Origin: Candidatus Nitrotoga fabula
GTDB lineage: Bacteria; Pseudomonadota; Gammaproteobacteria; Burkholderiales; Gallionellaceae
Reading direction: 5' to 3'
NCBI RefSeq assembly: GCF_905221025.1
Contig: NZ_CAJNBL010000022.1
Span: forward strand, 1 to 38,699
Length of the DNA stretch: 38,699 nt
The translations under genes were made by a program, and so were the position numbers. Shown here one piece after another: positions 4,446 to 36,915 of the stretch (positions are counted from its first letter, which is position 1; each line of letters starts with the position of its first letter). The notes beneath the pieces were generated by a model. That model worked only from the letters and a program-made list of their open reading frames with translations. It had not been told where the DNA came from and made no database searches.

Positions 4446-4829
4446 ATGAACAAGATGCAATCTTTGTTGGCTCCCTATGGTTCATTGGGATTTGTGTCGC
4501 TGGCAACTAAAGTCGGTGGTGAGGGCAAGGGGCCACCTATTTCAGATATCCGCTTTAAGAAAGATATTCAATTGCTTACGATGCTGGAAGATGGAATGAA
4601 AATTTATTCATTCCGCTATCATTGGTCGGATGAAGTTTTTGTGGGCATCATGGCGCAGGATTGTCTTGAGCACCCGGAATGGAAGAAAGCTGTATGCATT
4701 AGACCAGATGGTTTCTATGGAGTCGATTATGCGAAGCTGGGTCTTAGAAAGACAACTATCGAAATTTGGAATGAAAGAGGACTGGATTCAATTAAACTCG
4801 TCTCATCGCCGGTTGCATTGGAAGGATAG
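4446..4829 (+). CDS. Stand-alone S74-like (endosialidase-chaperone type) protein, LAPYGS family member 1
   Basis: Product of 127 aa. The ATG at 4446 is chosen because GGAGG (4436-4440) is 5 nt upstream; an in-frame ATG at 4434 overlaps that site. Residues 8-24 carry the shared motif LAPYGSLGFVSLATKVG. From S33 the protein matches the intramolecular chaperone domain found at the C-terminus of phage tail spikes: SDIRFKK, then YSFRYHW, VGIMAQD and YGVDYAKLGL. The domain family autocleaves just before the Ser using a Ser/Lys dyad five residues apart; S33 and K38 are both present. If active it would release an N-terminal peptide of 32 aa. No tail-fibre gene is nearby and there is no signal peptide. 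A paralogue (about 50% identical by eye) is encoded convergently at 5090-5467, and a third N-terminal-only copy lies at 30,917. Function unknown. Confidence 0.75.
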   Translation: MNKMQSLLAPYGSLGFVSLATKVGGEGKGPPISDIRFKKDIQLLTMLEDGMKIYSFRYHWSDEVFVGIMAQDCLEHPEWKKAVCIRPDGFYGVDYAKLGLRKTTIEIWNERGLDSIKLVSSPVALEG

Positions 4830-5089: not shown

Positions 5090-5467
5090 TTACACCAATA
5101 ATGGGATGCCTGAGCCAAGTTTAATAGATTCGGGTCCGGTTTTATTCCAAATATCCAGCGAGGTCATTTTAAGGCCCAGCATGGCATAATCAACCGCATA
5201 CAGCCCGTTCGCCTGGATCTGAACGGCTTTCTGCCATTCAGGGTGGGCAAGCAGGTCTTGCGCCATGATGCCTACGAAGGTTATTTCCGACCAGAGATAC
5301 TTGAATGAGTAAATCTTTATTCCGTTTTCAAGCGTTGACAGCAATCTGATTTCCTTCTTGCACCGGATGTCTGATGGTACTGTTTTACCATCTGTTCCGA
5401 CTTTGGTTGCCAAAGGAATAAATTTGAAAGAGCCATAGGGTGCCAGTGGGGAGGAAATGTTGTTCAT
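5090..5467 (-). CDS. Stand-alone S74-like protein, LAPYGS family member 2
   Basis: Product of 125 aa, paralogue of the convergent gene at 4446. GGAG lies 7 nt before the ATG. Residues 8-24 read LAPYGSFKFIPLATKVG. The S74-like domain begins at S32 (SDIRCKK) with the dyad Lys at 37, and continues with YSFKYLW, VGIMAQDLLAHPEW and YAVDYAMLGL, the positions most conserved in the endosialidase chaperone family. The predicted N-terminal product would be 31 aa. There is no signal peptide, membrane segment or fused fibre domain. It has its own promoter region with an operator-like repeat overlapping the -35 box. Both copies keep the same length and key residues, which argues that they are under selection rather than phage debris. 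Role unknown. Confidence 0.75.
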   Translation of the reverse strand: MNNISSPLAPYGSFKFIPLATKVGTDGKTVPSDIRCKKEIRLLSTLENGIKIYSFKYLWSEITFVGIMAQDLLAHPEWQKAVQIQANGLYAVDYAMLGLKMTSLDIWNKTGPESIKLGSGIPLLV

Positions 5468-8535: not shown

Positions 8536-9849
8536 TTAAATTTTCTTTGAAACAGGTGGATTGGTTGCGAAATATCGTTTGATGCCTTTCAGAATGGAAT
8601 GAGCTATTTTCTCTTGGTACTCTTTGTCCTTCAGGCGAATTTCTTCGTCCGGATTGCTGATGAAAGCAGTTTCGACCAGTATGGAAGGAACATCCGGCGA
8701 TTTCAGTACGGCGAAACCCGCCTGCTGAGTTTTGCTATTGTGTAACGTATTGATGCTGCCGAGTTCCCCCAGTACATATTTGGCCAGTTTGATGCTGTCG
8801 TTGTTCGTTGCATGTTGCGAAAGATCAAGTAATACATGTGCGAGGCCCGGTTCCTTTGCAGCTGTTGCGAGGTTTACGCCGCCAATCAGATCCGCTTCAT
8901 TTTCTCTTTTTGCAAGCCAGCGTGCGCTAACGCTGGAAGCTCCGTTTTTGGACAGAGTAAACACCGAAGATCCGCGCGCATCCGGCTTGATGAACGCATC
9001 AGCATGAATCGAGATGAACAAGTCTGACTGCATCTTGCGCGCTTTCTGAACCCGGCTGCCTAGCGGAATGAAATAATCTCCGTCTCGGATCAGCACGCCG
9101 TGCATGCCAGGGGTGCCATCGATCAGTTCTTTCAGTTTGCGCGCGATGGCCAGGGTGACGTGTTTTTCCTGGGTTCCATGGTATCCTTTTGCTCCCGGGT
9201 CTTCGCCGCCATGTCCCGCATCGATCGCAATACGTATGGGGGAGCTTGATTTTTCCGGCTGGTTGTGCAATTTCTGTCTGTTGGATTTCTCCACAGGTTG
9301 CGGAGCGGTCTTTGCTTCAGTTAGTTTGGGCTTTTGTAGTTCTGTTCCCTGTGCGGGCGGCCTGGTTGTAGCGGAAGGCAGATCCTGTTCGGAAGTGACT
9401 CCTGGTTGTTCCTGCAACAGCGCCATTAGGGGGTCCATGGGAATGGCAGGATAGATATCCAGAACCAGTCGGTGGCTGTAATTTGCCACCGGCGTGAGAC
9501 TGAACAACTGGGTTTTTACCTGGGTCTTGAGGTCGAATACCATGCGTGTGATGCCGGGTTTGAAGCGCGCCACGCGCATGCCTTTTATATAGGGATCGTC
9601 ACTATGGATTTTCCCGGCGAGTTCATTCAGGGCTGGGTTTATTTCAACCTCTTCCAGGTCAATGACCAGCCGCTCTGGGTTGTGCATCGAGAATGAGTTG
9701 TAACGGATCGGCTTTGCAGACTCGAGCGTCATCCGGGTATATTCCTGGGCTGGCCAAATGCGAGCGGAAGCGATTTCGATTGCAGCCTGTGCATGAGAGA
9801 ACCCTAGCAAAAGCCACAACGCGATCAGTTTTGCAGTGTGTGTAAACAT
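8536..9849 (-). CDS. amiC: N-acetylmuramoyl-L-alanine amidase AmiC
   Basis: Product of 437 aa from the ATG at 9849 (AGGGA just upstream); this start gives a signal peptide (LIALWLLLGFSHAQA), while a longer frame does not. Residues about 22-125 form an AMIN domain for septal peptidoglycan targeting. A Pro/Gln/Lys-rich linker follows, then the Amidase_3 catalytic domain with zinc ligands in DAGHGGEDPGAKG, the Glu of QEKHVTLAIA, the His of SIHADAF, and the catalytic Glu of ILVETAFISN. It cleaves the bond between MurNAc and the stem peptide during cell separation. Its first 25 bp overlap the end of tsaE, a linkage common in Betaproteobacteria and a sign of translational coupling. The catalytic domain of such enzymes is usually controlled by a NlpD/EnvC partner, not seen here. 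Confidence 0.93.
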   Translation of the reverse strand: MFTHTAKLIALWLLLGFSHAQAAIEIASARIWPAQEYTRMTLESAKPIRYNSFSMHNPERLVIDLEEVEINPALNELAGKIHSDDPYIKGMRVARFKPGITRMVFDLKTQVKTQLFSLTPVANYSHRLVLDIYPAIPMDPLMALLQEQPGVTSEQDLPSATTRPPAQGTELQKPKLTEAKTAPQPVEKSNRQKLHNQPEKSSSPIRIAIDAGHGGEDPGAKGYHGTQEKHVTLAIARKLKELIDGTPGMHGVLIRDGDYFIPLGSRVQKARKMQSDLFISIHADAFIKPDARGSSVFTLSKNGASSVSARWLAKRENEADLIGGVNLATAAKEPGLAHVLLDLSQHATNNDSIKLAKYVLGELGSINTLHNSKTQQAGFAVLKSPDVPSILVETAFISNPDEEIRLKDKEYQEKIAHSILKGIKRYFATNPPVSKKI

Positions 9850-10283
9850 TCCCTGCCCGCCTGTGAAATTGCACGTGCTTCCAAGTTGCGCATAGTACCC
9901 GCGGCTTGGACGGGTACGATGTTCAACGTGATTTCCATGTCTGCCTGTGGTACCAGATTTTGTGCTCTTTCCGGCCATTCCACCAAGCATATGTTGCGTC
10001 CGTCGAATTCATCACGGAATCCGGCTGCCTCCCATTCTTCTGCATTATGGAAGCGGTAGAGGTCAAAGTGGCATAAGTGTAATCCATTTACCTGATATTG
10101 TTCAAGTAAATTATAGGTTGGACTTTTTACCCGTCCGTTAAAGCCCATTGCTCGGAGCAGGGCACGTACCAGTGTGGTTTTCCCGGCCCCCAGGCTGCCA
10201 TGTAGATAGATTACCATCCCCGGCTTGATTCCAGATGCCAGTTGTGCCGCAAAGGCAGCAGTTGCATCTTCATCGGCCAGCAT
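9825..10283 (-). CDS. tsaE: tRNA threonylcarbamoyladenosine biosynthesis ATPase TsaE
   Basis: Product of 152 aa from the ATG at 10283. The Walker A motif is HGSLGAGKTTLVRALL, followed by the switch-like SPTYNLLE, DLYR and the Walker B-like CLVEWPER; all are TsaE hallmarks. TsaE works with TsaB and TsaD to make t6A37 in ANN-decoding tRNAs. The start is uncertain: no good ribosome site precedes 10283. A TTG at 10316 would add 11 residues, nearer to the usual N-terminus of the family; an ATG at 10418 would overlap the divergent queG gene by over 80 bp and is less likely. The 3' end overlaps amiC by 25 bp. Confidence 0.92.
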   Translation of the reverse strand: MLADEDATAAFAAQLASGIKPGMVIYLHGSLGAGKTTLVRALLRAMGFNGRVKSPTYNLLEQYQVNGLHLCHFDLYRFHNAEEWEAAGFRDEFDGRNICLVEWPERAQNLVPQADMEITLNIVPVQAAGTMRNLEARAISQAGRECLHTLQN

Positions 10284-10334
10284 CCGGTTTATTCGGCTAT
10301 GATTCGGATTATGCAAATCGGGAGACCTTAAATT

Positions 10335-11402
10335 GTGGATTATGATGCGCTGGCCGTCAAAATCAAAGAATGGGGCAGAGCGCTTGGTTTTCAGGCGGTC
10401 GGCATCAGTGATGTCCATCTAAATGATGCCGAAGAGCGTCTGCTGCAATGGCTGGCGCAAGGGTTTCACGGTGAGATGGATTATATGGCAAAACATGGTG
10501 TTAAACGCTGCCGCCCTGCGGAATTAATTCCTGGAACTGTGCGCGTGATCTCGGTGCGCATGGATTATTACCCGCCAAATGTGAAGGATAGCTGGGAAGT
10601 AATGGAGGATGGGACACGAGCCTTTATTTCACGTTATGCCTTGGGACGGGATTATCACAAGGTTTTGCGTTACCGCCTGGAAAAGCTTGCCGAAAAAATC
10701 CGAACCGGGGTGAGTGATTTCCGCTATCGCGTTTTTACCGATAGTGCCCCAGTGATGGAAGTCGAGCTGGCTTCGAAGTCGCGGCTTGGCTGGCGTGGAA
10801 AACATACGCTGCTGTTGTCACGCGAACACGGGTCGTGGTTTTTCCTGGGCGAGATTTATACCGACCTGCCTCTTCCACTGGATGAACCGGCAGAACCGGG
10901 ATATTGCGGGAGCTGCATGGCATGTCTTAATGCCTGTCCGACACAGGCAATTGTTGCGCCATACAGACTGGATGCCCGGCGGTGTATTTCCTACCTGACC
11001 ATTGAATTGAGAGGCAGTATCCCGTTGCCATTGCGCCCGCTCATCGGTAATCGCATTTATGGGTGCGATGATTGTCAGCTGGTATGCCCCTGGAACCGTT
11101 TTGCAAAAAAAAGTATTGAACCTGATTTTGTGGCCAGACACGGACTGGATGACGTGGGTTTAACCGAACTCTTTGGCTGGGATGAAAAAACATTCAGGAA
11201 AAAATTTGCAGGCAGCGCGATTTTGCGCATTGGATATGAACAATGGTTGCGCAATATCGCCGTGGCTTTGGGTAATGCTCCTGGGAGCCAGGAAATACAG
11301 ACTGCTCTGGAAGCGCGTGCGCAAGATGTGTCTCCGCTGGTGCGCGAGCATGTGGCATGGGCGTTGGGACGGCAAAGAAACTGGGTAGGTATTGCTGAAT
11401 GA
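10335..11402 (+). CDS. queG: Epoxyqueuosine reductase QueG
   Basis: Product of 355 aa with a GTG start (GGAGA about 9 nt upstream). It catalyses the last step of queuosine synthesis, reducing epoxyqueuosine in tRNA with a cobalamin cofactor and two [4Fe-4S] clusters. The N-terminal cobalamin-binding domain holds the family segments VISVRMDYYP, ISRYALGRDYHK and FTDSAPVMEVELA. The cluster motifs are CGSCMACLNACP and CDDCQLVCPW, with a HEAT-like C-terminal region (VREHVAWALG). It is divergent from tsaE with less than 60 bp between start codons, so the two promoters overlap. Both products modify tRNA, which may explain the conserved pairing. Confidence 0.95.
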   Translation: MDYDALAVKIKEWGRALGFQAVGISDVHLNDAEERLLQWLAQGFHGEMDYMAKHGVKRCRPAELIPGTVRVISVRMDYYPPNVKDSWEVMEDGTRAFISRYALGRDYHKVLRYRLEKLAEKIRTGVSDFRYRVFTDSAPVMEVELASKSRLGWRGKHTLLLSREHGSWFFLGEIYTDLPLPLDEPAEPGYCGSCMACLNACPTQAIVAPYRLDARRCISYLTIELRGSIPLPLRPLIGNRIYGCDDCQLVCPWNRFAKKSIEPDFVARHGLDDVGLTELFGWDEKTFRKKFAGSAILRIGYEQWLRNIAVALGNAPGSQEIQTALEARAQDVSPLVREHVAWALGRQRNWVGIAE

Positions 11403-11593
11403 AAATTTAAAACATATCATTCATTTGGTTCGTTTATATGCTTGTTACATAATTTCCGTTTCTGCCAGGGGAGCATAAAGACCAAAGATCTTAAATGAAG
11501 AGCTGGTCTGTCTGCAGTAGGACAAAAATTCCGTTTGGCATGTCGTCAGGTAACTGAAGAATACACGGAATAATCCGGGATCCAGGAAAATTC

Positions 11594-13231
11594 ATGAGCA
11601 AGACTTCAAGAGAGAAACAGCAGTCATTTGCAAAATCTGAAAGCCAGCTATCCTGTCCATCCGTGATTGATGGAATGCCGCGTTCTGTAGAGGAGTTGTT
11701 GCGCGAAATCAAGTTATATCAGTTTCAACTGGAGATACAAAGCGAGGAGATACGGCAAGCCCGGCTGGAGCTGGAAGCATCCCGCGACCGTTATGCGGAT
11801 TTTTATGATTTCTCTCCTGTGGGTTATATCACTCTTGACGGGGATGCTGTGATCAAGGAAATCAATCGTACTGGAACTATGCAGCTTGGAATGCAGCGGG
11901 ATATGCTGCTGCATCAACGATTTTCTCAATTTATAGCTCCGGAAGACCGTGAACGCTGGCATGGTTATTTTCAATCTGTACTGAAGCATGACAATCAACA
12001 GGCATGTGAATTGCTGTTGCGTCGTACTGACGGAATCTGTTTTTTTGCCCAGTTACATTGCCTGCGTCTGCAAAATCATGGGGGGGATCTTGCGGTACGC
12101 GCGGTGCTGACTGATATCACTGAGCGCAAGCAGGCTGAAATCAATCTTCGTATTGCCTCTGTTGCCTTCGAAACGCAGGAAAGTCTGATGATTACCGATT
12201 CCATGGGGGTGATTTTGCGTGTCAACAAGGCTTTTACCGAAACTACTGGCTATACGGCTCGGGAAGTTATCGGTAAAACCCCGCTTCTTCTTCAGTCCGG
12301 TTGTCATGATGTGGAGTTTTATAATGAGATGTGGGAATCCATCCGGAATACCGGAACTTGGCACGGGGAAATTTGGGGGCGCCGCAAGAATGGTGAACTC
12401 TTTCCCAAGTGGCTAACGATTTCTGCTGTTAAGGGAATAAGCGGCATTGTGACTCATTATGTTGGTTCCTATATCGACATTACGGAATTGATCAATGCGA
12501 AAATTGCAGCAGAAAAATCCAGTCGGGCTAAATCTGAATTTCTTTCCAGCATGAGCCACGAGTTGCGTACGCCGCTCAATGCCATTCTGGGCTATGCCCA
12601 GTTGATGGAGCAGGACATTCCTTCGCTGCCCCCTGATCAGGCAAGGAGGATCAAGGAAATTACTCGGGGCGGATGGTACCTGCTGGATCTGATCAATGAA
12701 ATTCTTGATCTTGCATTGATTGAATCCGGAAAGGTGTCTTTGTCTCCGGAATATATACCGCTGCATGAACTTCTTCTGGAATGCAAGATGATGATGGAAC
12801 CGCAAGCGACGCAGCGAGGCATCCAGCAGAATTTTTGTTTACCAGCCCGTTCCTTGCTGGTTTATGCCGACCGCACCCGCGTAAAGCAGGTGCTGATTAA
12901 TTTATTGTCCAATGCAATCAAATATAACAGTGAACAGGGTACAGTTGAAGTGACCTGCCACGTCAATTCCCTGAACAGGGTGCGGGTTAGCATACAGGAT
13001 AGCGGAGAAGGATTGCCATCTGAGAAACTGGAACAACTGTTTCAGTCATTTAACCGTCTTGGCAGGGAGGCAGGGGCGATAGAAGGAACCGGGATCGGTC
13101 TGGTCGTGGCCAAAAAACTGGTTGAGCAGATGGGCTGCGATATAGGTGTGGAAAGCACGCCAGGGTCAGGGAGCGTATTCTGGTTTGATCTGATTGTTGC
13201 TGACAATCAACCACATGACTTTGTGGCATAA
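11594..13231 (+). CDS. PAS-domain sensor histidine kinase (orphan, cytoplasmic)
   Basis: Product of 545 aa; AGGAAA lies 8 nt before the ATG. After an N-terminal coiled stretch (about 30-65), two PAS domains follow (about 66-180 with YDFSPVGYITLD, and 185-305 with NKAFTETTGYTAREVIG), each ended by a PAC-like DITE segment. The dimerisation/phosphoacceptor domain has H322 in SSMSHELRTPLNAILGYAQL. The ATPase domain shows the N box (NLLSNAIKYN, N440), G1 (DSGEGLP) and G2 (GTGIGLVVAKKL). There is no membrane segment, so it senses a cytoplasmic or diffusible signal. No receiver domain and no response regulator gene lie in the window, so it is an orphan here. The signal is unknown. A dGTPase-bearing mobile unit is inserted about 145 bp downstream. 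Confidence 0.92.
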   Translation: MSKTSREKQQSFAKSESQLSCPSVIDGMPRSVEELLREIKLYQFQLEIQSEEIRQARLELEASRDRYADFYDFSPVGYITLDGDAVIKEINRTGTMQLGMQRDMLLHQRFSQFIAPEDRERWHGYFQSVLKHDNQQACELLLRRTDGICFFAQLHCLRLQNHGGDLAVRAVLTDITERKQAEINLRIASVAFETQESLMITDSMGVILRVNKAFTETTGYTAREVIGKTPLLLQSGCHDVEFYNEMWESIRNTGTWHGEIWGRRKNGELFPKWLTISAVKGISGIVTHYVGSYIDITELINAKIAAEKSSRAKSEFLSSMSHELRTPLNAILGYAQLMEQDIPSLPPDQARRIKEITRGGWYLLDLINEILDLALIESGKVSLSPEYIPLHELLLECKMMMEPQATQRGIQQNFCLPARSLLVYADRTRVKQVLINLLSNAIKYNSEQGTVEVTCHVNSLNRVRVSIQDSGEGLPSEKLEQLFQSFNRLGREAGAIEGTGIGLVVAKKLVEQMGCDIGVESTPGSGSVFWFDLIVADNQPHDFVA

Positions 13232-13242
13232 GAAGTATGAAG

Positions 13243-13269
13243 ATCGATAATATATAGAACATTATCGAT
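13243..13269. other. 9-bp inverted repeat after the histidine kinase gene
   Basis: ATCGATAAT (13243-13251) and ATTATCGAT (13261-13269) pair perfectly across 9 nt. The plus side is followed by A-rich, not T-rich, sequence, so it is not a standard terminator for the kinase gene. It could terminate inefficiently or bind a protein. Confidence 0.5.
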
Positions 13270-13375
13270 AAAAAATATATTCTTTCCCGGAGTGGAAATT
13301 TCGATGCGCCTGCCAAATGGCTTGTATAGGTGATGATGTTTCTGAGGAAGTTCGACTGTAAAATGACGGGTAATG

Positions 13376-13432
13376 TGTAGTAATCCAGACTTCAACTGCC
13401 AGACATTGTCCGTTGTTCGGCCTAAGCGGACG
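13376..13432 (+). repeat. Left terminal inverted repeat of the dGTPase cassette
   Basis: 57 bp starting TGTAGTAATCCAGAC and ending TGTTCGGCCTAAGCGGACG. The middle 23 bases match the right copy at 15 positions. A short CCAGAC motif recurs inside it, like the repeated transposase-binding sites seen at the ends of some transposons. Flanked on the left by GGTAATG. Confidence 0.88.
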
Positions 13433-13563
13433 ATGCCAGGATAAAGGTGCTGGACAGCAAGCTGCTGGAAAGCTACGATCGTGTGCTGTTCCACGAGAAA
13501 TGCGACAACGTGTTTCACCTGATGCTCAATTATGCGAGCCACCATAGGAAATGGACGGTTTAG
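13426..13563 (+). pseudogene. C-terminal coding remnant, possibly of a type I restriction subunit HsdR
   Basis: An open stretch of 45 codons enters from inside the left terminal repeat without a start codon and ends at TAG 13561. It includes LLESYDRVLFHEKC and VFHLMLNYAS, helical and coding-like in composition, and reminiscent of the extreme C-terminus of type I restriction HsdR proteins. That family match is by impression and weak. Its position, truncated by the cassette end just before the dGTPase gene, suggests an older, larger defence-type cargo that has been deleted. Confidence 0.4.
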
Positions 13564-13602
13564 ATTGGCTTAATTGGAGGATGAAAATTGAAGGATGAAA
13601 AA

Positions 13603-14928
13603 ATGGAATGGGGGAAGCTTCTATCTAGAGAGCGACTTGAACGAAAGGGTACGCAACCAAAAGACGTTAGGTCAGAATACCAGAGAGATTATGACCGTAT
13701 CGTTTATTCCAGTGCATTCCGTCGCCTTCAAGATAAAACACAGGTGTTTCCGCTTGCGGAAAACGATTATGTGCGGACACGTTTGACTCATAGTATTGAG
13801 GTATCTAGCGTGGGAAGATCGCTCGGCACCTTGATCGGTGACTTTGTTATTACAAAAGAGGGCATAGAAGATGTGCACCCTCAGGAATTTGGAAATATAG
13901 TAGCCGCAGCATGTTTAGCGCACGATATAGGCAACCCACCGTTTGGGCACTCTGGCGAAGAGGCTATAAGTTCGTGGTTTGCTGGACAAGGAAATGAATA
14001 TTTAAGAGACCTCCAGCAAGAAGAGCAAGATGACTTCCTTAAGTTCGAGGGTAATGCTCAAGGTTTTCGCGTCTTGTCGCGCCTGCAAGGTGCAGTTGAT
14101 CGTGGAGGGTTGCAACTTACTTATGCAGTTTTGGGGGCATACAGTAAATATCCGAGATGTGCATACTGGTCCGAGTTTGACAAAAAAAAGGTGAGTGAAA
14201 AAAAGTTTGGTTTCGTAAAGGCTGATTTTGAGAGGTTTAAGGAGGTTGCGAACAGACTAGGATTAATTAGAAAGAATGATTTTGCATGGGCACGGCACCC
14301 CTTAGCATTTTTAATGGAAGCAGCAGATGATATTTGCTACAGAATAATTGACTTGGAGGATGGTCACCGACTTGGCAGGATTTCATTTGAAAAAACAGAA
14401 GCGCTTTTGCGGCCAGTTGCTTTTGGCAGTGGGCAAAATAATTCAGGCAAATCATATTCACTGATAAATGACGAAAAAAATAAGGTCGAGTATCTGAGGG
14501 CTAAAGCGATCGGCAACTTAATCTCTGATGCAGTTTCAACCTTCCAGGCTAATTACGAGAATATTATGAAAGGTAAATTTGAGGATGATTTGATGTATCA
14601 TTCAAAATATATCAACCATCTTAATGATATAAAAGAGCGATCGAAAGATAAAATATATGCCTCGCCTAACGTGCTTTATATTGAAGCGGCAGGGTTTGAG
14701 GTACTGGGTGGTTTGCTAGAAAAGATAGTTCCAGCTTTGATCGGTGTAGAAGAAAATAGAACAGCCGCAGAAAAGAAAGTACGTCAGCTAATCCCTCAGC
14801 AATTCACCAAGGGGAAAAATAAGTATGAGCAGCTTCTAGGAGCGACGGATTTTGTGTCTGGCATGACCGATTCATATGCTGTGACTTTTTATCGCAGATT
14901 GCGCGGCATAGAATTGCCGAGGGGATAA
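13603..14928 (+). CDS. dgt: Deoxyguanosinetriphosphate triphosphohydrolase (dGTPase)
   Basis: Product of 441 aa from the ATG at 13603 (AAGGA at 13591-13595). A TTG at 13588 with GGAGG 7 nt upstream would add five residues and is equally possible. The HD-domain metal site is seen as RLTHSIEV (H63) and AHDIGNPPFGHSGEEAI (H107, D108), with the N-terminal SSAFRRLQDKTQVFP typical of dGTPases. The enzyme splits dGTP into deoxyguanosine and triphosphate. Housekeeping roles include dNTP balance; some bacterial dGTPases stop phages by draining dGTP (published for dGTPase defence genes). The gene sits inside the inverted-repeat cassette, has lower GC and more AAA/AAT codons than its neighbours, and so is likely acquired. 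A defence role is inferred from that context. Confidence 0.92.
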   Translation: MEWGKLLSRERLERKGTQPKDVRSEYQRDYDRIVYSSAFRRLQDKTQVFPLAENDYVRTRLTHSIEVSSVGRSLGTLIGDFVITKEGIEDVHPQEFGNIVAAACLAHDIGNPPFGHSGEEAISSWFAGQGNEYLRDLQQEEQDDFLKFEGNAQGFRVLSRLQGAVDRGGLQLTYAVLGAYSKYPRCAYWSEFDKKKVSEKKFGFVKADFERFKEVANRLGLIRKNDFAWARHPLAFLMEAADDICYRIIDLEDGHRLGRISFEKTEALLRPVAFGSGQNNSGKSYSLINDEKNKVEYLRAKAIGNLISDAVSTFQANYENIMKGKFEDDLMYHSKYINHLNDIKERSKDKIYASPNVLYIEAAGFEVLGGLLEKIVPALIGVEENRTAAEKKVRQLIPQQFTKGKNKYEQLLGATDFVSGMTDSYAVTFYRRLRGIELPRG

Positions 14929-15012
14929 ATAACGAGTCGCTGATCCCGTTTTTTAGCAACAACATCCCCGATAGCAGGCATTCCATCACCTCTGAATGTG
15001 GTCAGCTGTGTG

Positions 15013-15069
15013 CGTCCGCTTAGGCCGAACATCAGACAGAATCTGTCAGATGAGGTCTGGATTACTACA
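15013..15069 (-). repeat. Right terminal inverted repeat of the dGTPase cassette
   Basis: Reverse-complement partner of the left repeat, 49 of 57 positions identical, followed directly by the GGTAATG copy at 15070-15076. The 84 bp between the dgt stop and this repeat hold no gene. Confidence 0.88.
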
Positions 15070-15216
15070 GGTAATGAATTTTTACTGGTTCCTTTAGTTG
15101 TTGCGTATCGTTGCGAATTCTTTTCTTTCAGTTCATCTGGGTGGTCAGCTGCGTGAATGATAATGTGGATGGTGCTTGTGCTTTTTTGTTTTTCAGATAT
15201 AAAACGCCGAACCGGA

Positions 15217-15666
15217 TCAGCTGCGGATTTTTGCTTCCTTTTGCTGCTCGCGCCTTACCAGATGGGAAAGTGCGAGTAGTTCTTCGGACAGCAGTTCCAG
15301 TATGTCGTCCAGCGTCAGTATTCCTATCAGTCCTCCCTGATTATTGACTACCGGCAGGCGCCTTACCGCTTTCTGACGCATATATTGAATCGCCTCGAAT
15401 ATTCCGGTTCCTTCCTGGATGGTAACCACCTCCTGTTCCATGATTTCTTCCACGGTAAGACATGCACCATCGAGCTCAACTGCCAGAACCTCCATTACCA
15501 GATCGCGGTCGGTTACAATACCTACCGGTATCCGGATACCGGCGCGGTCTTCAACCACCAGGACATCGCCAACATGATGTTTCCGCATCAGTTTGGCCGC
15601 ATCCACCACCGACTCATTCTTCTGTATGACTACTACTTCACGGTTACAAATTTCGCTGACAGGCAT
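15217..15666 (-). CDS. Two-CBS-domain protein
   Basis: Product of 149 aa; GGAG lies 7 nt before the ATG. It is made of two CBS domains in tandem: about 8-62 (VVDAAKLMRKHHVGDVLVVE, PVGIVTDRDLV) and 74-130 (IFEAIQYMRQKAVRRLPVVN, LIGILTLDDIL), plus a charged helical tail. CBS pairs bind adenine nucleotides such as AMP, ATP or NAD(H) and act as energy sensors; free-standing ones may modulate partner proteins or scavenge nucleotides. It is the last gene of a minus-strand run headed by Hsp20 and GroEL, next to a half-length paralogue, and near the right end of the dGTPase cassette. Confidence 0.9.
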   Translation of the reverse strand: MPVSEICNREVVVIQKNESVVDAAKLMRKHHVGDVLVVEDRAGIRIPVGIVTDRDLVMEVLAVELDGACLTVEEIMEQEVVTIQEGTGIFEAIQYMRQKAVRRLPVVNNQGGLIGILTLDDILELLSEELLALSHLVRREQQKEAKIRS

Positions 15667-15755
15667 GATATTTCTCCATTCAAGTTTGAAATTTCAACAG
15701 CCCAGTCAGCCACAATGTCTGTAATAAATGCCGGGCCGGATGACTGGCGCTATGG

Positions 15756-16028
15756 TTAATCATGTATGCCGGGATGCCGCCCTGCTGAACGCAAATCTAT
15801 GATATCCCCTACTGTTATGACCATGTAATCCAGGCCAGGGGCCATGATTTCCACTACGAGATCGTGATCCGTAATGACTCCCACCGGGATAATTTTTCCA
15901 TTGCAGTTATCAATGACCTGTACATTGCTAACCTGGTGCAGGCGCATAAGTTTGGCTGCTTCCAGGACAGTATCATCACGCTGCAAGAAAATGGTTGCGC
16001 TGCTGCGATTATCCCAGGAAGTGGCCAT
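15756..16028 (-). CDS. Single-CBS-domain protein, truncated paralogue
   Basis: Product of 90 aa. It aligns with the first half of the neighbouring two-CBS protein: AAKLMRLHQVSNVQVID and IIPVGVITDHDLVVEIMAP, then VGDII where the second CBS domain would begin, followed by an unrelated tail of about a dozen residues and a stop. The second CBS domain is therefore missing. It could work as a homodimer that forms one CBS pair, but the abrupt loss at the domain border and the weak ribosome site (only AAAGAA upstream) suggest gene decay after tandem duplication. It lies 89 bp upstream of the intact paralogue and 43 bp downstream of the frameshifted BCAM0308-family gene. Confidence 0.7.
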   Translation of the reverse strand: MATSWDNRSSATIFLQRDDTVLEAAKLMRLHQVSNVQVIDNCNGKIIPVGVITDHDLVVEIMAPGLDYMVITVGDIIDLRSAGRHPGIHD

Positions 16029-33816: not shown

Positions 33817-33989
33817 GAATTTCAGGAATCCAACAGACTGTAGCTGCTTATGCATTTTCAAGCGAAAAAGAATGTCCGGTTTTCAAGATGTAATGAAATA
33901 AACCAGGGTCGTTATTTTTTGAAAAGCGCTTTCCTATATAAAGTTGTTCATAACACTGGAAAGCATTGCTGTTTGATACAGGAGGAATC

Positions 33990-35288
33990 ATGAAAAACTC
34001 GATGAGCGGGGTAGTTTTGGCAGCCTTGCTGGCTGCGTGTGCCAGCGATGAACCGTCGGAAGTCGACATCAAGAAGATGGATCGTACTTCTGCTGGCGCG
34101 GATGCTCCTATTGCTGCAGCAGAAGAGGTTCTATCGGGGCCAGATCGGACTTCCGAGCTGGATCAGTCGAGACTTAATGCAGCCAGAGAGGCGGCACTCC
34201 GGGCGGAAGCCGATGCGGTGGCCGACAGGCAAGCAGCCAGAGCCACTGTGGTAATGGATAAGGGGAATGCCGGAATGCTGGCAGAGCTGGAAGCAGCCAG
34301 AGCGGCAGCGGCCCGGGCAGAGGCAGAAAACATGGCGGCAAGAACGGCTGAAATCCGCGAAGCGGAGAAATTAGCGAGACTGGCCGCTGAGCGGGAAGCG
34401 GCCAGGGCGGCTTTAGCGAAATCAGGAGCAGAAGAGGCATTGTTGCAGGCGGCGCGTGCGGCAGAACTTCATGCCGCCGAACTCGAAGCTGCCCGGATTG
34501 CGCGGGAAAAAGCAGAGGCGGAAGCAGCCGCGGTCAGGGAATCGGCCCGCGCGGCAGCCAGTCATGAAGCAGAGAAAGCGGCCAGACTGGCCGCCGAACT
34601 CGAAGCTGCCCGGATGGCACGGGAAAAAGCAGAGGCGGAAGCAGCTGCGGCAAGAGAAGCGGCCAGACTGGCATCCTCTGGTGATGCGGAAAAGTCAGCC
34701 AGGCTGGCTGCGGAGCTAAAAGCCGCTCAGGCGGCCGCTGCCCAAGCCGGGGCGGAAACGCTTGCAGTCAGGGAGGCAGCCGCACGTGATGCGGACAAGG
34801 CGGCCAGGCTGGCTGCAGAGCTGGCTGCGGTCAAGGCGGAAACCGATGCGCTGAAGGCGCGGAAAGCGGCCAGGCTGGCTGTGGCCAGTGATGCAGGCAG
34901 TGCTGCCAGGTTTGCAACCGGGCAGAAAATGGCAAGGAAGGATCAGCATAAAGCTTTATCCGGTGCGGCAGGGTCGAAGCGTGTACAGACTGCGGGAACC
35001 CAGGGGGAAGTTGCCAGGAAAGCTGCGGGGCAGAGCATGATTAAAGAGGCAGAAGCGGGTACATTGGCTGCCCAGCCTTCCGAAACGGTTTCTGCGCCTG
35101 GAAAGGGAATGGAGGAATCCAAAGTCGAGGCTGCTGCCCCCGGGTCAGCTGGTATGTCCGAATCTACAGCGTTGTCTCCAGACGTAGAGGAAAAGCAGGG
35201 TTTTAATTGGCAATGGCTGTGGGCATTGCTCCTGGTTCCGCTGCTTGGCCTGATCTGGAAACGCAGCTCATCTGAGAAATCTGCGTGA
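33990..35288 (+). CDS. Ala/Glu-rich coiled-coil lipoprotein with C-terminal membrane anchor, copy 2
   Basis: Product of 432 aa; the ATG at 33990 has AGGAGG 5-6 nt upstream and gives the same lipoprotein start as copy 1 (LAACASDEP, Cys17). The helical region is longer (about 50-345) and built from near-repeats such as KAARLAAELEAAR and AREKAEAEAAA; at DNA level a 61-bp block at 34473-34533 recurs at 34590-34650 with a 117-bp (39-residue) period. A low-complexity Gly/Ser/Pro part follows. The C-terminus repeats FNWQWLW (from residue 405), a membrane segment and a basic WKR. The two proteins share both ends and differ mainly in spacer length. Function unknown; a tether or an envelope-spanning strut is inferred. 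Confidence 0.78.
   Translation: MKNSMSGVVLAALLAACASDEPSEVDIKKMDRTSAGADAPIAAAEEVLSGPDRTSELDQSRLNAAREAALRAEADAVADRQAARATVVMDKGNAGMLAELEAARAAAARAEAENMAARTAEIREAEKLARLAAEREAARAALAKSGAEEALLQAARAAELHAAELEAARIAREKAEAEAAAVRESARAAASHEAEKAARLAAELEAARMAREKAEAEAAAAREAARLASSGDAEKSARLAAELKAAQAAAAQAGAETLAVREAAARDADKAARLAAELAAVKAETDALKARKAARLAVASDAGSAARFATGQKMARKDQHKALSGAAGSKRVQTAGTQGEVARKAAGQSMIKEAEAGTLAAQPSETVSAPGKGMEESKVEAAAPGSAGMSESTALSPDVEEKQGFNWQWLWALLLVPLLGLIWKRSSSEKSA
34473..34650 (+). repeat. Direct repeat inside the second lipoprotein gene
   Basis: A 61-bp block starting GCCGCCGAACTCGAAGCTG occurs at 34473-34533 and 34590-34650 with only a few differences, offset 117 bp (39 codons, in frame). It points to growth of the coiled coil by internal duplication. 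Confidence 0.8.
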
Positions 35289-35324
35289 AATGTCTTTGTG
35301 CCTGCAGTCGGTCGATTCAGGCCG

Positions 35325-35363
35325 ATCTGGCAGCTCCCCTACCTAAACTGGGGGCTGCCAGAT
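35325..35363. terminator. Strong GC-rich hairpin between convergent genes
   Basis: ATCTGGCAGC pairs with GCTGCCAGAT, extended by CCCC/GGGG past a one-base bulge; loop of about 10 nt. It lies 36 bp after the lipoprotein stop and 30 bp beyond the stop of the minus-strand YegP-like gene. No T-run on either side, so it may rather block exonucleases or act with Rho. Confidence 0.5.
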
Positions 35364-35392
35364 ACTATTGCGATTGCAGTCAATAGTGAACT

Positions 35393-35728
35393 TCAAGTGG
35401 TCATGTCCATTACATCGGCATCGGGTGCTCCGTTTTGGATCCATTTTATTGCTTTGTCACGGTCAGCGGCAGATTCATGAGATTCGCTGGTGCCGATAAC
35501 CTGGCCATTGGTTGCTTTGAGGTTGAACATGAATTTCCCGCTCTGCGTTTGCTTGCACTCATAGCGGGCATCCTCTGGTGCGTTCTTTTTTACCGACTCC
35601 ACTCCGTTGGTGCATCCGGATTTTGCGGTATAGCCTTCGCTTACCAGTACAATTTTTCCGTCGCTTGTCTTTAACCTGAACCTGAATTCCTCAGCTTTGT
35701 CCTTGTATATTTCAAATTTTCCAGCCAT
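35393..35728 (-). CDS. YegP-family (DUF1508) protein
   Basis: Product of 111 aa from the ATG at 35728, which has AGGAG upstream; this matches the family start (MAGKFEIYKD). It consists of two DUF1508 repeats: residues about 3-53 (FEIYKDKAEEFRFRLKTSDG, ILVSEGYTAKSG-like strand, GVESVKKNAPEDA) and 54-106 (FMFNLKATNGQVIGTSESH, DKAIKWIQNGAPDA). Family structures show a compact alpha/beta fold of unknown function, often stress-inducible. It is cytoplasmic and single-gene. Convergent with the second lipoprotein gene. Confidence 0.92.
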   Translation of the reverse strand: MAGKFEIYKDKAEEFRFRLKTSDGKIVLVSEGYTAKSGCTNGVESVKKNAPEDARYECKQTQSGKFMFNLKATNGQVIGTSESHESAADRDKAIKWIQNGAPDADVMDMTT

Positions 35729-36014
35729 GGCAAGTCTCCTTTCGTTTATAAGAGGTCGGATGCTGCATTCTGGTGACCCGGTCAGCAAATCCGCTGACAA
35801 CAGGATTCTACTTGAATTTTAATAATGGAATGCAGTTCATATAATATGAATTCTTAATCCTGCCTTTTTTCCCGGAATGAAAAATCCATGCAGTATGCGG
35901 AACGGCTGCATGAACGCAGCCACAGTTGCAACTGGCAGGAATGGATCGCAAATCGAATTTCAATTCTGAAGCAGGGTTAAGCTGGTATATTGCCGTCGTT
36001 TTAGGAGAGAATCC

Positions 36015-36044
36015 ATGAAAAGGATCGGGTTGCGCGTCAGATAA
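36015..36044 (+). other. Orphan ribosome site and 9-codon frame
   Basis: AGGAGAG (36003-36009) is followed after 5 nt by an ATG and nine codons (MKRIGLRVR) before TAA. It may be the broken 5' end of a lost gene or a leader peptide, but no downstream plus-strand gene follows closely. Confidence 0.3.
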
Positions 36045-36108
36045 ATGTTTGCTGTGGATCGGTACCGGTAACTGGGTGAATGGGTCATGCAGATAGCCTG
36101 GATGTGGC

Positions 36109-36429
36109 TTATTTCGTCAGCCCTGCAATGAATTTTGCCAGTGACTGGATTTCCGCATCGCTTGCGCCCATGCCTTTTGCCGGCATTTCTCCGTAATCCC
36201 AGCCAAACGAACCACCGGAGGTAATGCTGGCGGCAATTTTTTTCACCGCGTCCTTGTCTCCTTTATATTTTTCGGAAATTTCCATGAAAGAAGGGCTCAT
36301 GCTGCTACTGTCTATGGCATGACATTTGCCGCATCTGGCCGTTCCTTCCATTGGCATGTCGACAGCAGGCACGGAGCCTGAAATGAGCAGTCCTGCGGTT
36401 GCAAGTATGGCTGTAGAAATAGGGTTCAT
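36109..36429 (-). CDS. Class I cytochrome c (c551/c552 type)
   Basis: Product of 106 aa; GGAGAAG precedes the ATG. Signal peptide (LATAGLLISGSVPA), then the heme motif CGKCH near residue 33, the helix MEISEKYKGDKDAVKKIA and the axial Met in YGEMPAKG near residue 83. The spacing fits the small soluble cytochromes c551/c552 that carry electrons in the periplasm between dehydrogenases or cytochrome bc1 and terminal oxidases or reductases. It resembles the second heme domain of the SorB protein in this window, so it could be one of its electron acceptors (inference). It stands alone. Confidence 0.93.
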   Translation of the reverse strand: MNPISTAILATAGLLISGSVPAVDMPMEGTARCGKCHAIDSSSMSPSFMEISEKYKGDKDAVKKIAASITSGGSFGWDYGEMPAKGMGASDAEIQSLAKFIAGLTK

Positions 36430-36915
36430 TTTCTTCTCCAGTAAATCAATCCAGTTCGGGTTGGACAGGCAAGCCTCATGATGTGGGTAAATCTTGCTTA
36501 CTATAATTTACCGGTAAGATTTTTTCCACCAGGGATTTTCATGGGGTATTGATCTTGAGACATGATGATCCAGTGACGATCGGATGCAACGTGTGAATGT
36601 CTGTGTATGGACATATATCCCTGTCTTAAGAAATGTTATGTACAGAAGAATTTCTGGTTCTTCATTTTTGGATTATCCTGGGTTGGAATGCATGCCACTT
36701 AAGCAGTCCGTTCTGCAATTTCAGGAACTGGACGGATGTTCTGTATTCCTATACAGTTATCATCCGAAAGCCGGAATGCAGTTTTGTGGGATTTTTAATG
36801 AAACGGATACATTATATATAATGTATCCTGTTATCCATTCTGGAAAAAATGTGTTGCGTGGTTTTCAGCGTATTGGAACTATAATTTTTCTGTGATCAAT
36901 CAAAAGGAGACTGAA
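36430..36915. other. Divergent intergenic region with palindrome
   Basis: About 485 bp between the cytochrome (minus) and the PepSY-like gene (plus). A plus-strand frame of 103 codons (36584-36895) has no ribosome site and no domain and is not called. The 24-bp palindrome at 36805 is listed separately. Confidence 0.5.
36805..36828. promoter_or_regulatory. 24-bp perfect palindrome, probable operator
   Basis: The half-site GGATACATTATA is followed directly by its exact reverse complement. It lies 87 bp before the PepSY-like start codon and contains TATAAT on both strands, so a bound repressor would cover a -10 box. The regulator is unknown; TetR- or MarR-type sites have this shape. Confidence 0.6.

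Follow-up and report, generated by a model that had tools for sequence, protein, structure and literature searches.

A transposase-less mobile cassette with IS481-like ends carries a dGTPase gene in Candidatus Nitrotoga fabula

The window, by which we mean the whole analysed stretch of 38,699 nt from Candidatus Nitrotoga fabula, contains a mobile, transposase-less cassette of 1,694 bp (13376-15069) with an intact dGTPase gene inside. It belongs to a family of elements whose ends are IS481-like and whose cargo varies. Observed directly were its ends and duplications, sister cassettes, the empty site of one sister, and an hsdR-dGTPase arrangement in another genus. The element is probably a non-autonomous mobile insertion cassette (MIC) that an IS481-like mobiliser would move in trans and whose dGTPase, taken from a restriction locus, would be phage-defence cargo. 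We infer that the dGTPase cassette is still mobile.

The terminal arms of the cassette are 57 nt long and 86% complementary (49/57), with identical outer 15 nt, and the 7-bp sequence GGTAATG is duplicated exactly just outside both arms (Table 1), as the earlier note on this DNA had described. This was the sole perfect 15-nt inverted repeat in the window (arms up to 10 kb apart) with an exact 7-bp flanking repeat, and the same pattern was absent from 20 first-order Markov resamplings of the window. A PAS histidine-kinase gene lies on one side of the cassette and a CBS-domain gene on the other. The note had also claimed that the dGTPase gene is intact and that a transposase is lacking, and this held: no transposase was found in 13376-15069, where dGTPase is the only one of the overlapping ORFs of at least 100 aa that lies wholly inside, without a second long gene. 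One minus-strand ORF of 112 aa extends across the left end of the cassette. The view that a single gene is carried stood for the one dGTPase gene, but the cargo is not purely one gene because an hsdR 3' remnant of 39 codons lies beside it. The dGTPase gene was read from a long ORF at 13588-14928 with a TTG start; its start was set at the ATG at 13603 by comparison with the relative in genome G124, and the protein queries began at codon 3 (13609). Other repeats in the window were a run of 9-bp units CATCATGGG at 922-1063, encoding a histidine/glycine-rich stretch within an ORF, an imperfect tandem pair of 117-nt repeats (80%) at 34473-34706 in ORF 33966-35288, and a 152-nt inverted repeat (4542-4693 and 5223-5374), 72% complementary with the arms 529 nt apart.

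Table 1. Features of the dGTPase cassette (window positions) and further elements bounded by ends of the same family
Feature	Position or locus	Strand	Length	Flanking duplication	Basis or content
Left target-site duplication copy GGTAATG	13369..13375	.			Read directly; identical to 15070-15076
Left terminal inverted repeat	13376..13432	+			47-nt L-type end is 13376-13422
hsdR 3' remnant (type I restriction; last 39 codons and stop)	13444..13563	+			Nucleotide alignment to L191 (G124)
dGTPase gene, HD superfamily	13603..14928	+	441 aa		HD motifs present; equivalog and PADLOC matches
Captured downstream segment	14929..15028	+			Homology to G124 chromosome up to 15028
Right terminal inverted repeat	15013..15069	-			47-nt R-type end is 15069-15023
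Right target-site duplication copy GGTAATG	15070..15076	.			Read directly
C9/C16 element, taken as one	G000:C9:52883-53879 (L010 5884-6880); G000:C16:9552-11171 (L011 4553-6172)				attC-like sites and short genes
G164 element	L071		1,692 bp	GATAATT, exact	Uncharacterised 389-aa protein
G174 element	L074		2,909 bp	1 mismatch	ParE toxin and AAA_21/PtuA-like ATPase
G097 element	L106		3,915 bp	1 mismatch	IetA (E 3e-77), IetS (E 2e-43)
G008 element	L107 1011-5589		4,579 bp	CTTTAAT, exact	Chlorite dismutase, ECF sigma factor, NrsF, thioredoxin domain
G064 element	L128			CATAAAC, offset by one base	P-type ATPase
G141 element	L101			No clean duplication, 2 mismatches	
G123 element	L138			No clean duplication, 3 mismatches	HigB, DUF3800, weak nSTAND
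G170 element	L105			No clean duplication, 5 mismatches	Mut7-C

The genome of the window (G000; 2.30 Mb, 44 contigs) contains six full 47-nt ends, which form three L/R pairs including the pair of the window. The lack of any further copy of the repeat, which the earlier note had named as an argument against its reading, is not what was found, because the check for other copies in the same genome gave four more full-length ends, and these carry other cargo. Left ends were 46-47/47 identical to each other and right ends 45-47/47, and left versus right ends 36-39/47. The left end of the window cassette was 46/47 identical to those on contigs C28 and C9, and its right end was 47/47 identical to that on C28 and 45/47 to that on C16. 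On C28, the sister cassette (34682-36910) is 2,229 bp long and is flanked by exact copies of TGTAATA; its cargo is a DndB-like gene (PF14072, 29.9 against a cut-off of 29.1) and a DUF4145-like gene, whose 22.1 bits fall slightly short of the cut-off of 23.1. The ends at C9:52883 and C16:9552 face contig ends and are taken as the two sides of one element, the third of the family in the genome, because TATCAGG adjoins one of them on the outside and the exact complement of this 7-mer adjoins the other, as in an exact duplication. Both parts contain attC-like sites (motif read by eye; fold z-scores -2.9, -2.5, and -1.6), and no integrase was recognised by eye in the ~2.6 kb of the element covered by the assembly. 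An identical 80-nt IS-like sequence occurs near both contig ends. Three different cargos enclosed by near-identical end pairs speak for the ends as the mobile unit.

The empty site of the C28 cassette was found in a congener (G018) by searching with this cassette and its flanks. A single 7-mer TGCAATA, one substitution away from TGTAATA, lies between both flanks at the tail of xdhC, and the sequence directly after it is like that 3' of the second TGTAATA in the genome of the window. The 48-nt right flank in G018 aligned better than its shuffles (0/2000 equal or better); the homology at that side is short because G018 is rearranged farther out. In this congener (L222 1460-3173), the orientation of xdhC to the adjacent nucleotidyltransferase gene is the opposite of that in the genome of the window, and the breakpoint is near the empty site. 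For the dGTPase cassette, no genome with the two flanks adjacent was found among the matches listed for 60 relatives, with at most four candidates scored per genome; the flanking genes were seen apart from each other in relatives, and in G009, both flanks lie on one contig, about 16 kb apart. The claim of a mobile cassette is well supported: the genome has further copies of the ends around different cargo, the duplications are exact, and a congener has the empty site of the sister.

The dGTPase of the cassette scored above the cut-off of the equivalog NF002205/PRK01096 (474.2 bits against 439) and matched the PADLOC dGTPase model (4.9e-77), and it remained below the cut-off of the NCBI antiphage-dGTPase model NF041026 (218.7 bits against 400). 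The gene is patchily distributed: it was present in 3/158 genomes of the bacterial family at E<=1e-40, with only the G124 relative close (81%), and in 76/399 genomes of the order at 1e-60. Over the pair with G124 it is under purifying selection (dN/dS 0.17). In G124, which belongs to another genus, the gene order is HsdM-HsdS-two ORFs-HsdR-dGTPase (L191), and PADLOC annotated MTase_I, Specificity_I, REase_I, and dGTPase in the locus. The 3' end of hsdR, the dGTPase, and the downstream sequence (window 13445-15028) align to this locus at 80% nucleotide identity. The dGTPase was apparently cut out of an anti-virus (restriction) gene cluster. The alignment reaches 16 nt into the right repeat of the cassette, which blurs the capture boundary; either the cargo brought part of the right repeat along or a decayed end survives in G124.

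When a single HsdR query was used, HsdR was found beside dGTPase in 1 of the 21 fetched dGTPase loci, namely in G124. Five dGTPase neighbourhoods were read. Among these, the restriction locus is L191, nothing unusual was seen in L171 and L174, and in L172 the homologue adjoins a DrmMI-like methyltransferase. In L173 (G191; 9178-16000), by our reading, a Cas9-like ORF of 1,022 aa, a Cas1-like ORF, and a repeat array follow directly downstream of the homologue. The genome of the window has a second gene of the dGTPase family, by our reading of a 374-aa ORF (G000:C28, L012 3429-4553), beside an aroB-like ORF, and this is probably the housekeeping copy.

Antiphage dGTPases were reportedly described by Tal et al. 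in 2022. Such enzymes are also treated in PMC12265719. An antiphage function of the cassette dGTPase is plausible. The designation as a defence gene in the earlier note agrees with the hsdR-dGTPase arrangement in G124 and the PADLOC match and is at odds with the failed NF041026 cut-off. The latter result is also what would be expected of a metabolic or mutation-avoidance dGTPase mobilised by accident. This explanation is rather unlikely. The closest structures, 3bg2 and 7tu0 rather than antiphage SpdGTPase 9p8w, agree with it, as do the metabolic cargo of other cassettes and the ordinary appearance of two of the five neighbourhoods; against it stand the second dGTPase-family gene beside aroB, the match of the cassette gene to one in a type I restriction locus, and the homologues beside the Cas9-like ORF with repeats and beside the DrmMI-like methyltransferase. 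The preferred reading of the cargo is that the dGTPase most likely serves as a standalone, dGTP-depleting effector of phage defence, which would have been taken from a locus of the hsdM-hsdS-hsdR-dGTPase type together with the last 39 hsdR codons.

Compared with both ends of an insertion sequence in G023 (contig C94), the outer 28 nt of the cassette ends agree at 22-24/28 positions with whichever IS end fits better, and the best agreement elsewhere in the window was 19. The transposase of this IS has HTH_29 and rve domains (Pfam). The IS is flanked by GTTCATC/ATTCATC (6/7) and is the only IS copy with both ends recognised. We assigned it to the IS481 family from HTH_29 and rve and from its TGT...ACA ends. 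The termini of the IS481 family are TGT...ACA, and those of the cassette read likewise. One paper (PMC10045372) prints TGT...ACA termini for eukaryotic relatives of IS481 and gives IS481 duplications of 2-15 bp, mostly 6, a range that includes the 7 bp of the cassette. The assembly of the window contains 12 matches to transposases of the G023 type, all partial or broken and several at contig starts; the longest open frame near such a match is 298 aa and broken, and the best match spans 238/346 residues. At E<=1e-110, the transposase was matched in 4/158 genomes of the bacterial family, the decayed copy of the window's genome included. The cassette has no IS481 transposase gene of its own in 13376-15069, and is therefore not itself an IS481 element.

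Mobilisation in trans by an IS481-like transposase is the best mechanism we can propose, and it is favoured by the likeness of the outermost 28 nt to the ends of an IS481-like IS. We infer it rather than observe it, since the transposase copies in the genome of the window are decayed or partial. Of the transposase in trans proposed earlier, a candidate IS of IS481-like type was thus found, but not an intact copy in the window's own assembly. The L and R ends would share the outer ~28 nt with the IS, so that its DDE transposase could act on them in trans; the cassette would then have inserted between the PAS histidine-kinase and CBS-domain genes, duplicating 7 bp of the target.

The decayed or partial state of the transposase copies would also suit an autonomous transposon that had its own IS481-type transposase replaced or deleted and is now a fixed fossil, and its L and R ends differ from each other as those of a full element do. 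This is quite improbable: there is no transposase remnant inside, the homology to hsdR-dGTPase of G124 fills 13445-15028, and the dGTPase has been under purifying selection since the split from G124. Moreover, near-identical ends enclose different cargo in three elements, and the movement of these ends therefore most likely needed no internal transposase. It is very improbable that two independent MITEs flank a resident dGTPase gene and may now move as a unit in the style of TIME-COMP, which would fit the existence of a cargo-free abutted end pair of the family (58 bp, G179) and the resemblance of the dGTPase stretch to a chromosomal locus (G124), but the exact 7-bp repeat is found on the outer side of each end, which is what a single insertion of the whole unit would leave, the empty site of the C28 sister fits arrival as a whole unit, and each side is a single 47-57-nt repeat with no complete two-ended MITE.

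A sequence model built from 16 ends matched 74/158 genomes of the bacterial family at E<=0.05 and 24/158 (hand-counted) at E<=1e-6; at the latter threshold, it matched 6 genomes in a draw of 399 genomes of the order, 3 inside the family and 3 outside. When 40 ends were tested for partners, 6 gained one in the same locus, the C9 and C16 ends paired together, and 32 had none, some of them at contig edges. Two possible long pairs, L108 (14.4 kb) and L140 (10.9 kb), were not accepted. The complete elements are listed in Table 1; the element of L107 is at the same locus in congeners G006 and G015 (L193 1387-5965, L194 1298-5876). The cargo of L107 and L128 is our own assignment, since Pfam families were reported for the cargo set as a whole. 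No transposase Pfam family was detected at 1e-4 in the 23 cargo ORFs (at least 150 aa) of ten elements other than C9/C16. Targets can be called AT-rich at most, because the preference NNTAATN, which we considered, fits only 4/8 duplications. We also rejected GTCCGC..GGCCGA as a common dispersed host repeat seeding capture; it had only 9 occurrences (one duplicate) in 1.09 Mb of fetched loci, namely 6 at cassette ends, 1 at the G124 site, and 2 elsewhere. The pattern TGTAGTARTCCAGACNNCANCTG had one match in the genome_contigs collection, in which records close to the genome of the window may be missing; it was inside a coding ORF of a Heimdallarchaeota MAG and was judged to be chance. The pattern scan gave 0 matches in viral contigs and no match in plasmids.

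At 1e-10, PADLOC models matched 4/23 cargo ORFs in 3/10 elements (the window dGTPase, IetA, IetS, and the PtuA-like ATPase) and 2 or 3 of 52 flanking ORFs; the cargo ORFs were inspected individually, and for the flanking ORFs the counts are per family, so that 3 is the upper bound. The difference was not significant (Fisher p 0.12 or 0.07), and we therefore claim no enrichment: defence-related genes are frequent in the cargo, though not significantly more so than in the flanks, and genes of other kinds also occur in the cassette family.

Several loci bear on movement and on the exchange of cargo. L118 (G158) and L123 (G156:C78) are 95% identical over 1,402 bp from the first base of the end and have unrelated 400-nt left flanks; the decay of their right ends has left no recognisable duplication. 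An inversion may be the alternative to movement in this case, because the two loci have a further common stretch of 1.1 kb, 8-11 kb away, in opposite orientation. Another contig, G156:C138, matches G158 through the flank and the end to 11 nt past the end, where the match stops; matches of 77-78% resume ~14.6 kb on and correspond to the right-border region of G158. In G174 and G165 (L074, L075), the match reaches the last base of the 47-nt end with none beyond, over the only 142 nt of the G165 interior that its sequence covers. One locus with flanks 87-92% alike is loaded in G170 (1,682 bp between the ends) and cargo-free in G179 (58 bp of abutted ends). L077/L078 (also L119 and L118), like L074/L075, have an insertion site and an end in common between two species, with unrelated sequence behind, and in G156 (L119 1180-2136) a TIR-domain-like ORF, by our reading, lies just inside the end. 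We put forward as tentative, and consider unlikely, a wider reading in which the ends would be a general capture-and-swap vehicle, with cargo exchanged behind a fixed end at one chromosomal site, through recombination near the inner TTCGGCC border, and the unit moved by an IS481-like transposase in trans. The pairs G156/G158, G174/G165, and G170/G179 and the three cargos between near-identical ends in the genome of the window are cited for it; the short covered stretch of the G165 interior and the possible inversion at G156/G158 lower its probability.

MICs are described in PMC5444012 as non-autonomous IS derivatives with a passenger gene. The cassette presents the testable core of this definition, that is, IS-like ends, a passenger with no transposase, and a target duplication. 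As with MICs, it combines IS-type inverted repeats, a passenger coding sequence, and a target duplication with the lack of a transposase, and action in trans is assumed; it differs in having IS481-like ends and in one end family with many unrelated cargos (restriction-locus, toxin-antitoxin, attC-like array). No IS481-type MICs with defence cargo were found among the titles and abstract starts listed from an open-access library. TIMEs and TIME-COMPs (PMC4133298, PMC13367494) are likewise transposase-less, bounded by inverted repeats, able to mobilise arbitrary DNA, and inserted in AT-rich targets, whereas they have 38-bp ends of the Tn3 family and 5- or 6-bp duplications in place of IS481-like ends and 7 bp; in contrast to a TIME-COMP, the cassette has a single repeat per side and not a complete MITE. 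The MITE-bounded class 1 integrons of Acinetobacter, reviewed in PMC10969869, have short inverted-repeat elements around integron cassettes and are in this comparable to C9/C16, but the ends of the cassette family differ and also carry non-integron cargo, and C9/C16 has no recognised integrase in its covered part. Tn7-like transposons are also a vehicle for diverse defence systems, but they encode the genes for their own transposition and are longer, with medians of 14-29 kb (PMC8649781), against 1.7 kb and no such genes in the cassette.

The nearest solved structures of the cassette dGTPase are 3bg2 (E 1e-101) and 7tu0, and it is distant from SpdGTPase (9p8w, E 1.5e-37) and from 9p8s-v (2e-53), which we take to be CloA. 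With SpdGTPase and Clover CloA (PMC12265719), it has in common that it is an HD-superfamily dGTP triphosphohydrolase with the HD motifs present. The cassette differs from Clover in having no CloB-like nucleotidyltransferase partner; its neighbours encode the histidine kinase and the CBS-domain protein.

Phages, satellites, plasmids, and large transposons are known carriers of defence genes. In comparison, a unit of 1.7 kb that lacks a transposase and holds a restriction-locus dGTPase would be a very small vehicle of a defence gene. Such cassettes would escape searches that rely on transposase or integrase genes, and the end model is a direct route to more of them and to the genes that they carry. 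If capture and swapping by the ends were true, defence and other accessory genes would circulate through the bacterial family without a mobility gene of their own.
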